Shown here: one piece after another, positions 12,010 through 29,141 of the stretch | Layout: each line of letters opens with the position of its first letter | Position numbering within the stretch: position 1 is the first letter of the stretch | DNA from: an uncultured Bacteroidota bacterium | GTDB lineage: Bacteria > Bacteroidota > Bacteroidia > Flavobacteriales > Flavobacteriaceae | NCBI GenBank assembly: GCA_902577515.1 | Contig: CACGZJ010000008.1 | Coordinates: forward strand, 1-60,629 | Length of the DNA: 60,629 nucleotides | Direction of reading: 5' to 3' | Notes under the pieces: model-generated | What the model was told of the DNA's origin: nothing | The model's database searches: none | Seen by the model: only the letters and a program-made list of their open reading frames with translations | Translations under genes and position numbers: made by a program

Positions 12010-12017
12010 TAAATTTG
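12010..12017 (+). promoter_or_regulatory. Putative -7 box TAAATTTG before the cysteate synthase-like gene
   Basis: Exact TAnnTTTG ending at 12017, where it overlaps a possible GTG start. It favours the ATG 20 nt downstream at 12038 as the true start of a short-leader transcript. Confidence 0.45.
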
Positions 12018-12037
12018 TGCATTATTTCCAGATTATA

Positions 12038-13078
12038 ATGCCTGCTAATAATAAACCTTACAATAACATACTGGAGCTTATAGGTAATACTCCATTAATT
12101 AGACTAAATGAAGTCACAAAAAATTTTAAAGGAGAATACTTCACAAAGTTTGAGGGATTTAATCCAGGTCACTCTAATAAGGATAGAATTGCTCTTCATA
12201 TAATTAATCAAGCTGAAAAGAAAGGTATTTTAAAGAAGGGTAGTACTATAATTGAAACTACATCTGGTAATACTGGCTTCAGCTTGGCTTTAGTTTCTTT
12301 ACTCAAAGGATATAAGTGTATCTTGGCAGTAAGTTCTAAAGCTTCTAAAGATAAAATCAATATGATGAAATGTTTAGGGGCTGAAATTTATGTTTGTCCC
12401 TCTAATGTATCATCTGATGATCCAAGATCATATTATGAGGTTGCTAAGAGGTTAACTAATGAAATTAACGGATCTGTATACATTAACCAATATTTCAATG
12501 ATTTAAACATTGAAGCTCACTATCAAACTACCGGTCCAGAAATCTGGAATCAAACAAATGGAAAAATTAGTCACTTAATTGCATGCAGTGGTACTGGAGG
12601 TACTATATCAGGAATAGGTAGATTTTTAAAAGAAAAAAATAATGATATAAGAATTATTGGAGTTGATGCATACGGTTCAATACTAAAAAAATACCATGAA
12701 ACTGGTGAAGTAGATCCAAATGAAATATACTCATATAGGATAGAGGGACTTGGTAAAAATATAGTACCTTCTGCAACTGATTTCAAAATTATCGATAAGT
12801 TTGTAAAGGTTACTGATTCTGATAGTGCTCATATGGCTAGAGAGATAACTTTAAATGAAGGATTATTTGTCGGATACACTTCAGGTGCAGCTTTTCAAGC
12901 TGCAAAAATATTAAATGATGAGAACGAATTCGAAAAGTCTAGTTGTATTGTAATTATTTTTCCTGATCATGGTTCAAGATATTTAAGTAAAATATATTCT
13001 GATGAATGGATGAACAATCAAGGTTTTTATGATTCGAGTTTTTATCAACCTAAAAAAAATTCAATTAATTATATTTAA
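12038..13078 (+). CDS. PLP-dependent cysteine-synthase-fold enzyme, probable cysteate synthase
   Basis: A 346-residue fold-type II PLP enzyme. The PLP lysine is Lys48 in NPGHSNKDR, the substrate loop TTSGNTG is at 74-80, and the phosphate loop GTGGT follows in [10 protein letters not shown]. Generic cysteine synthases have NPxxSVKDR and a C-terminal SSG; here the residue before Lys is Asn and the late motif reads YTSGAA. Five bases downstream lies an alpha-oxoamine synthase gene. In Bacteroidota this pair makes sulfonolipids: phosphoserine or a similar donor plus sulfite gives cysteate, which is then acylated. Cysteate synthase is therefore my preferred call; plain O-acetylserine sulfhydrylase or cystathionine beta-synthase remains possible. 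Start chosen at ATG 12038 rather than GTG 12017. Confidence 0.7.
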
Positions 13079-13083
13079 TTTTT

Positions 13084-14340
13084 ATGCAAGACTTATTTGA
13101 CAAAATATATAAAAATAAAGGTCCTCTTGGCAAATGGGCATCTATTGCCGAAGGTTACTTTGTATTTCCTAAACTAGAAGGTCCAATTTCAAATAGGATG
13201 ATGTTTAATGGTAAAGAAGTTATTACATGGAGTGTAAATGATTATCTAGGATTAGCAAACAATCCAGAAGTAAGAGAAGTTGATGCCAAGGCAGCAAAAC
13301 AGTATGGAAGTGCTTATCCTATGGGAGCTAGAATGATGTCAGGTCATACTAATCTTCATGAAAAATTAGAATCTGAACTTGCCAAATTTGTTTCTAAGGA
13401 ATCTGCATACCTTCTTAATTTTGGATATCAGGGAATCCTTTCAACTATAGATACTTTAGTAACTAAAAATGATATTATTGTATACGATATAGACTCTCAT
13501 GCATGTATAATTGATGGAGTTAGACTTCATCTTGGAAAAAGATTTACATATCAGCATAATGATATGAAAAGTTTAGAGAAAAATCTTGAAAGAGCTACAA
13601 AACTTGCAGAACAAACAGGAGGAGGAGTATTGGTAATCTCAGAGGGAGTTTTTGGAATGAGGGGAGAGCAAGGAAAACTAAAAAAAATAGTTGCATTAAA
13701 AGATAAATATAAATTTAGACTTCTTGTGGATGATGCTCACGGTTTTGGAACGTTAGGTAAAACTGGTGCAGGAGCTGGAGAGGAACAAGGTGTTCAAGAT
13801 CAAATTGATGTGTACTTTGCAACCTTTGCAAAATCTCTTGCCTCAACTGGTGCTTTTATTGCAGGTGATTCTGAAATAATTGAATTCTTGAAGTATAACA
13901 TGCGTTCTCAAATGTTTGCAAAATCTCTTCAGATGCAATTAGTTATTGGCGCACTAAAAAGACTTGAATTAATTAAGACCAGGCCTGAGTTTAAGCAGAA
14001 GCTTTGGGAAAATGTTAATTTACTTCAATCTGGATTGAAGGAAAGAGGCTTTGATATTGGTTCAACACAAAGTTGTGTTACTCCCGTATACCTTAAGGGT
14101 AGCATTCCTGAAGCAATGGCATTAGTTAAAGACTTAAGAGAAAATTATTATATTTTTTGTTCAATTGTTGTTTATCCTGTAATACCAAAGGGATTGATTC
14201 TGCTTAGACTAATTCCAACTGCTTCACACAATATTAATGACATTAATATAACTCTTGAAGCATTCTCTTCAATTAGAAAAAAACTTGAGAAAGGTGTTTA
14301 TAAGCGAGCATCTAAAGGAATGGAAGAGTCAGTTGACTAA
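13084..14340 (+). CDS. Alpha-oxoamine synthase, probable cysteate C-fatty acyltransferase (sulfonolipid synthesis)
   Basis: A 418-residue fold-type I PLP enzyme of the serine palmitoyltransferase/KBL/BioF family. Visible are the substrate-stacking His139 (DIDSHACIIDG), DDAHG at 216-220, and the PLP Schiff-base Lys250 in FATFAKSLASTGAF. The family condenses an amino acid with an acyl thioester, releasing CO2. The linked cysteate synthase-like gene makes cysteate the likely substrate, giving 3-ketocapnine, precursor of the sulfonolipids of gliding Flavobacteriia. Alternatives are serine palmitoyltransferase and glycine C-acetyltransferase; a KBL would normally pair with threonine dehydrogenase, absent here. 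Its stop shares CTAA with the stop of dnaN. Confidence 0.75.
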   Translation: MQDLFDKIYKNKGPLGKWASIAEGYFVFPKLEGPISNRMMFNGKEVITWSVNDYLGLANNPEVREVDAKAAKQYGSAYPMGARMMSGHTNLHEKLESELAKFVSKESAYLLNFGYQGILSTIDTLVTKNDIIVYDIDSHACIIDGVRLHLGKRFTYQHNDMKSLEKNLERATKLAEQTGGGVLVISEGVFGMRGEQGKLKKIVALKDKYKFRLLVDDAHGFGTLGKTGAGAGEEQGVQDQIDVYFATFAKSLASTGAFIAGDSEIIEFLKYNMRSQMFAKSLQMQLVIGALKRLELIKTRPEFKQKLWENVNLLQSGLKERGFDIGSTQSCVTPVYLKGSIPEAMALVKDLRENYYIFCSIVVYPVIPKGLILLRLIPTASHNINDINITLEAFSSIRKKLEKGVYKRASKGMEESVD

Positions 14341-28346: not shown

Positions 28347-29141
28347 ATGAGCAAGGTCATTTTAATCACTGGAACTTCTTCTGGATTTGGAAGAACAATA
28401 GCTGAAAAACTTCACTCTGAAGGATACACTGTAATTGGGACATCTAGAAATTCTGAAAAAATTTACTCTGATTATTTAACTATTAAGCTTGATATAAATG
28501 ACTATGAAGCATCTAAGTCTGAAGTTGACGAGATAATAAAGAAATATGGCAAAATTGATGTTCTAGTTAACAATGCAGGAATTAACATAACTGGACCAAC
28601 TGAAACAATGAAAATGAGTGATATTAAAAGCGTATTTGATACAAATTTTTTTAGTCAGCTTAATCTAATCCAAACAGTCTTACCTCACATGAGGTCAAAA
28701 AAAATGGGTTTAATAATTAATATTACTTCAATTGCAGGATATCTTGGCCTTCCATTTTGGAGTGCTTATTGTGCATCAAAAGCTTCTTTTAGAGTTATAG
28801 CTGAAAGTTTAAACATTGAACTAAAAAAGTATAATGTTAACGTTGTAAATATTGCTCCAGGTGACTATAAAACTGAAATTTTGAATAATAGGAGAGATTC
28901 AGATAATCCTAGTTCCTCGCCTTATTTTAAAGAATATGAAAAAATTATTAAGAGTGTTAATGGAAAAATGATTCATGGAAGGGACCCGATTGAAGTTGCC
29001 AACTTAGTGTTGAAAATAATTAAAGAAAAAAAACCAAAAATTAACTACCTTGTAGGTGGATTTCTCGAAAAGAAAATTACACTGAAGAGTCTATTACCGG
29101 ATAAGCTTTTTCAGAAAATAATAATGAAACTATATAGCTAA
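28347..29141 (+). CDS. Short-chain dehydrogenase/reductase
   Basis: A 264-residue classical SDR. NAD(P)-binding TGTSSGFG at 9-16, NNAG at 75-78, and the catalytic triad Ser128, Tyr141, Lys145 (YCASK). Arg34 in GTSRN suggests NADPH preference. The basic, hydrophobic C-terminal tail (GGFLEKKITLKSLLPDKLFQ) resembles lipid-acting SDRs such as 3-ketosphinganine reductase. The window holds probable cysteate synthase and cysteate acyltransferase genes, so this is a candidate 3-ketocapnine reductase, but it is 14 kb away and the link is inference. Transaldolase follows 5 bp downstream. Confidence 0.88.
   Translation: MSKVILITGTSSGFGRTIAEKLHSEGYTVIGTSRNSEKIYSDYLTIKLDINDYEASKSEVDEIIKKYGKIDVLVNNAGINITGPTETMKMSDIKSVFDTNFFSQLNLIQTVLPHMRSKKMGLIINITSIAGYLGLPFWSAYCASKASFRVIAESLNIELKKYNVNVVNIAPGDYKTEILNNRRDSDNPSSSPYFKEYEKIIKSVNGKMIHGRDPIEVANLVLKIIKEKKPKINYLVGGFLEKKITLKSLLPDKLFQKIIMKLYS

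Follow-up and report, generated by a model that had tools for sequence, protein, structure and literature searches.

A putative sulfonolipid gene pair in planktonic Flavobacteriaceae that show no gliding motor or sulfate assimilation genes

Two adjoining genes for PLP-dependent enzymes in an oceanic member of the Flavobacteriaceae raise the question of what they make together, and of why a lineage with a small genome has kept them. Both lie in the window, by which we mean the whole stretch of 60,629 nt that was analysed, with 5 nt between the stop codon of capA and the ATG of the acyltransferase gene (Table 1). The ORF list and coordinates thus bear out the two adjoining ORFs with 5-bp spacing that a preliminary description had reported. 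The longest frame of the first ORF (12017..13078) opens with GTG and codes for 353 aa, whereas translation from the ATG at 12038 gives 346 aa; the second frame starts with ATG. Each protein has a strong Pfam match (PALP, E = 9.3e-80, for the first; Aminotran_1_2, E = 3.9e-36, for the second), which excludes chance ORFs. The pair is flanked on the 5' side by a gene for a Met-zincin-type protein (DUF4953/DUF5117) and on the 3' side by dnaN, in converging orientation. To gauge conservation, we surveyed 20 loci of the genus, this one included. A gap of 1-5 nt separates capA from the acyltransferase gene in all 19 loci in which both ORFs are whole; the other locus (L016) stops within capA.

Table 1. 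Features considered in this study. Coordinates refer to the window unless a contig or locus of the same genome is given.
Feature	Length (aa)	Position	Strand	Basis or remark
capA-like cysteate synthase, fold type II PLP enzyme	346	12038..13078	+	NCBIfam NF053679; PDB relative 9k2p
capB/sulA/cfat-like cysteate fatty-acyltransferase (alpha-oxoamine synthase)	418	13084..14340	+	28eh/7u7h clade; Lys280; Lys250
SDR, candidate 3-ketocapnine reductase (by inference)	264	28347..29141	+	KdsR NF049977; clustering in other families
MBL + double rhodanese fusion, persulfide-dioxygenase-like	456	own genome G000:C1:103518-104888 (L104:1019-2389)		
CapA paralogue (L105)		own genome C14, L105:481-1458		52% identical to CapA

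The first protein is probably a cysteate synthase. Among the 25 models listed of 33 matched, the NCBIfam equivalog for the cysteate synthase CapA was the best, and the sole one whose cut-off was exceeded, though narrowly (606.3 bits versus 600). This result favours the earlier proposal that a neighbour with the cysteine synthase fold would provide cysteate. The closest solved structure is 9k2p (E 5.9e-145, 60.6% identity over 325 aa), which is annotated solely as a PLP-dependent beta subunit and has no functional name. Both motifs of the preliminary description are confirmed, NPGHSNKDR starting at residue 42 and GYTSGAA at residue 279. Their portrayal there as unusual did not hold, however, as they are in fact normal for the CapA family: all 11 family-level relatives examined carry NPGHSxKDR and GYTSGA, and 9k2p carries NVGHSAKDR and GYTSGA. 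Among six order-level relatives, both motifs vary, the first appearing as NPGHSTKDR, NPGHSMKDR, NPGLSVKDR or NPGDSTKDR, and the second as GYTTGA, GYTGGA, GYSSGA or GYSTGS.

One caveat here is that the margin over the cut-off is 6 bits, and that the same genome encodes a paralogue for which the best model is also CapA, at 462.3 bits, below the cut-off of 600. Both points count against the CapA reading. The paralogue carries NPGNSVKDR and GNSCGAA, is more CBS-like (CBS/CysK-like), and may be a cysteine or cystathionine enzyme. Conceivably, the first enzyme of the pair could itself make cysteine, as a cysteine synthase or cystathionine beta-synthase, with cysteate coming from elsewhere. It does score 393.9 bits with the CBS model TIGR01137 and 307.9 bits with cysteine synthase A; CBS and cysteine synthase make up most of the 59 further PDB matches listed after the functionally unnamed 9k2p; and some order-level relatives (G037, G041 and G052, for example) have an acyltransferase match without a strong capA match. 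However, the enzyme falls under the cut-offs of the other 24 models listed (of 33 matched) and over that of CapA, and its motifs are those of the CapA family, not the SVKDR and NSCGAA of the paralogue. The genome holds that paralogue as a distinct, more CBS-like protein, and capA is tightly linked to the acyltransferase gene across the genus. We therefore regard a cysteine-forming role as improbable, and a cysteate synthase of the CapA family remains our reading of the first protein.

The second protein resembles enzymes that condense cysteate. Its nearest solved structure is 28eh, entitled 'Cysteate-C-fatty acyltransferase' (E 1.7e-209), followed by 7u7h, the SulA of Alistipes finegoldii (E 2.9e-171); the serine palmitoyltransferase (SPT) structure 3a2b ranks after these two (E 2.7e-70). 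As originally described, the active site is intact, with His139, DDAHG (Asp216, Asp217 and His219) and Lys250 all found. The preliminary description had looked to a tree to separate the possible identities. In a 73-row maximum-likelihood tree, the protein clusters with neither SPT nor KBL-like proteins and instead joins the two solved cysteate acyltransferases, 28eh and 7u7h, inside a clade of 47 rows with 100/100 support. The solved SPT 3a2b forms a separate clade with proteins from three class genomes that exceed the SPT cut-off. Rows that we presume to be KBL-like and BioF-like, partly from their tree position, lie outside the cysteate acyltransferase clade. The tree left out L009, a copy of the window, and kept L120, a long-branched row placed outside the clade; the long-branch warnings of the tree program concerned L110, L113 and L120, among others, none of which is part of the claim.

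Lys250 corresponds to SulA Lys251, the PLP lysine, and Lys280 to SulA Lys281. According to the available excerpts of PMC9304779, the active sites of SulA and SPT differ at Lys281, which is Ala in SPT; SulA accepts cysteate, not serine or phosphoserine, and the K281A variant is inactive. The position is Lys in 48/48 clade rows (the window being counted twice), versus Ala in 4/4 SPT, Asn in 13/13 KBL-like and Thr in 6/6 BioF-like rows outside the clade, a count that omitted L120 and whose groups also lack L036 and L110. The cysteate-diagnostic Lys280, together with the score on the SPT equivalog NF047600 (301.6 bits versus a cut-off of 640), points to a cysteate acyltransferase, as had been proposed.

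These same data bear on the idea that the protein is an SPT serving sphingolipid synthesis, and the adjoining PLP enzyme an unrelated cysteine synthase. SPT shares the superfamily and fold, and the top NCBIfam model of the protein is indeed the SPT of the CFB group. However, the score on that model is less than half the cut-off, the SPT rows form a clade of their own, and the position of SulA Lys281 holds Lys rather than Ala, making this idea very improbable. The SPT cut-off is passed in 3/60 class genomes, and the own genome holds a second, weaker match to NF047600 besides the acyltransferase. That the protein is KBL or BioF, condensing glycine or alanine, is hardly credible: these enzymes share the superfamily, but the scores (286.7 bits for KBL, 279.3 bits for BioF) are far under the cut-offs (460 and 426.45), and the KBL-like and BioF-like relatives sit in other clades with Asn or Thr instead of Lys. 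We dropped the SPT, KBL and BioF identities on the basis of the model cut-offs, the tree and the diagnostic lysine.

For the two genes, the analysis directly establishes the families to which they belong, their active-site residues, their linkage and their conservation. Judging from their sequences, the pair very probably forms an operon-like unit with which sulfonolipid (capnine) synthesis starts, covering its first two committed steps. With substrates, product, reductase and final lipid taken from homologues, the predicted route would begin with CapA, which would swap the phosphate of O-phospho-L-serine for sulfite, via a PLP-aminoacrylate, to yield L-cysteate. Such an intermediate belongs to the known enzymology of this fold, and sulfite is needed by CapA. 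In the acyltransferase, the external aldimine of cysteate would form at Lys250, and cysteate would then condense with the thioester of a fatty acid (in the characterised homologue, acyl-ACP), releasing CO2 and giving 3-ketocapnine. A ketoreductase, for which the SDR of Table 1 is the candidate, would then convert 3-ketocapnine to capnine, and an N-acyltransferase would complete the outer-membrane sulfonolipid. Excerpts of PMC10191378 and PMC11211663 describe phosphoserine sulfonation to cysteate by CapA, formation of 3-ketocapnine from cysteate and acyl-ACP by CapB/SulA, reduction to capnine, and then N-acylation.

The SDR matches the NCBIfam model for 3-ketodihydrosphingosine reductase (KdsR) over its full length, at 219.6 bits versus a cut-off of 400, a shortfall that counts against the pathway proposed above. 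We scanned six other SDRs of the own genome, leaving out L052. L050 scored 112.2 bits; L047 and L048 scored below 199.1 and 181.1 bits (25 families being listed of 141 and 138, respectively); and L051, L053 and L054 gave no KdsR match at E 1e-30. Outside this family but within the order, some genomes have an SDR gene inserted between those for CapA and the acyltransferase (G038, G045, G044, G057) or beside the latter (G042, G037), and order-level clusters cover steps 1-3 (L097 in family f3, L098 in f10, L099/L100 in f9) or steps 2-3 (L207 in f7). The window SDR was the top own-genome match for four of the five clustered SDRs recovered (L097, L099, L100 and L207, with L099 and L100 representing one genus; L208 yielded no SDR over the length limit). 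For the fifth, the truncated ORF of L098, L050 was the best own-genome match and the window SDR second. We consider the SDR a candidate 3-ketocapnine reductase. In Chryseobacterium and Alistipes too, the reductase does not adjoin the pair, according to excerpts of PMC11211663. Within the genus, the SDR is present in 16/25 genomes, and in 13 of the 25, including the own genome, it lies 13.5-15.1 kb downstream of the pair on the same contig. Loss of the SDR in the other nine was considered and set aside: in seven (G002, G004, G011, G014, G016, G018, G022) the contig is too short to reach the expected site ~14 kb downstream, and the region is missing from G015 and G020.

How widely is the pair conserved? 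The acyltransferase is found in 22/25 genomes of the genus, the own genome included, and CapA likewise in 22/25, in one case split across two contigs. The acyltransferase query gave a single match in each of the 22 and none in the other three, and two to four matches in 27 of 35 other relatives. The three genomes without the pair (G007, G015, G020) are also without the adjacent dnaN. As dnaN is an essential gene, the region is most likely unassembled there, and loss of the pair from these genomes is unsupported. G007 has the SDR on its contig C4, which ends 6.6 kb past the SDR, short of the expected site of the pair. Every genome of the genus in which the region seems to have been assembled has the pair. 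A copy in UBA7446 is 96% identical over residues 3-362, and of 590 stretches that encode the acyltransferase, the 80 best are 77-96% identical. The acyltransferase is common in Flavobacteriaceae, and the combination of CapA and CapB/SulA is in itself an ordinary, known kind of system.

The setting of the pair is another matter. GldL was detected in 0/25 genomes of the genus, compared to 32/35 other relatives (31 over the cut-off). PF01507, the PAPS/APS reductase family, was likewise detected in 0/25, compared to 11/12 other genomes of the family and 27/35 non-genus relatives (26 over the cut-off). PF01507 includes CysD as well. Genome completeness is listed at 54-95%; multiplying the missing fractions gives ~1e-17, assuming independence, and hence both absences look like lineage losses rather than assembly gaps. 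We infer that the genus is GTDB genus MED-G11, to which some NS5 members belong; the available excerpts of an NS5 study (PMC9122927) report that NS5 species have no gliding motility and that, of the NS5 groups, NS5_B alone has assimilatory sulfate reduction. The loss of gliding and sulfate reduction is therefore already in print. The term 'sulfonolipid' is absent from the text of that study, and among the open-access listings searched we found no publication joining these losses to sulfonolipids. Sulfonolipids of other marine Bacteroidota are the subject of earlier papers, and their occurrence in the sea is in itself not new. Taken together, the absence of GldL and the reported non-gliding nature of NS5 (PMC9122927, in excerpt) speak against carrying over to this lineage the link between sulfonolipids and gliding that the preliminary description had mentioned, and make gliding an unlikely reason for keeping the pair. 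Similarly, with no PF01507 match in the genus, sulfite supply for CapA is unexplained by sulfate assimilation, which is a point against the proposed pathway.

A fusion of an MBL domain (PF00753) with two rhodanese stretches (PF00581) is a candidate sulfite feeder for CapA, given its likeness to persulfide dioxygenases. Enzymes of this type release sulfite or thiosulfate from persulfides. Among PDB entries, 3tp9 and 3r2u come closest, and ETHE1 (4chl) matches more weakly. The score on the NCBIfam model for the Blh sulfur transferase/dioxygenase (NF040641) is 56, versus a cut-off of 625, and we do not class the protein as Blh. Rhodanese-matching frames of 454-488 aa occur in 22/25 genomes of the genus, the MBL half having been examined in the own genome only. 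The fusion may supply sulfite to CapA. Cysteine dioxygenase was rejected as a source, PF05995 being found in 0/23 genomes of the genus, 2/14 at the order level and 1/14 controls; as it is scarce in the order and the controls too, this family is rare here anyway. Sulfite reductase (PF01077) was found in 0/23 genomes of the genus and 2/14 of the order, and since it is scarce in the order too, its absence from the genus is non-discriminating.

Compared to CapA-CapB-CapC of Capnocytophaga (Liu et al. 2022, as presented in excerpts of PMC10191378 and PMC9304779), the pair belongs to the same synthase and acyltransferase families, but the gene for the candidate ketoreductase is 14 kb distant, and the setting is a ~1.2 Mb plankton genome with no GldL or PF01507 match. 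A CapC of Ornithobacterium has also been described (PMC11211663, in excerpt). With SulA of A. finegoldii (7u7h; PMC9304779, in excerpt), the window enzyme shares the Lys251/Lys281 positions and the clade. In Alistipes, cysteate reportedly comes from an enzyme related to the archaeal synthase and not from CapA (PMC10191378, in excerpt), whereas here CapA is found. Five relatives (G037, G041, G043, G048, G052) have a clear cysteate acyltransferase (60-64%) and a CapA match of at most 54% or none; acyltransferases without a strong CapA suggest another cysteate route in such relatives. By homology, the same role would fall to Cfat of Flavobacterium johnsoniae (Fjoh_2419; PMC9304779, PMC11211663, both in excerpt), which is a close relative of SulA (PMC9304779). 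The window's genus differs in showing no GldL. Work by Vences-Guzman in 2021 reportedly found the F. johnsoniae Cfat gene to be required for efficient gliding.

The point of interest, then, is not the pair itself but a pathway kept where neither a gliding motor nor sulfate assimilation was detected. Tentatively, and with some doubt, we suggest that sulfonolipids are still made by a non-gliding, genome-reduced, free-living ocean lineage that has lost assimilatory sulfate reduction. Its sulfite would come not from sulfate but from the oxidation of organic or sulfane sulfur by a persulfide dioxygenase-type enzyme, and the lipid would be kept for a gliding-independent role in the outer membrane or in interactions. 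The locus predicts capnine-type sulfonolipids in small free-living marine Flavobacteriaceae, and raises the question of where sulfite originates in cells without a detectable PAPS/APS reductase. Sulfonolipids and gliding, usually named together, would come apart here. Excerpts of PMC9304779 state that sulfonolipids trigger choanoflagellate development and affect inflammation in mouse models; given such effects, the presence of a source in the plankton could be relevant to how grazers and bacteria interact.
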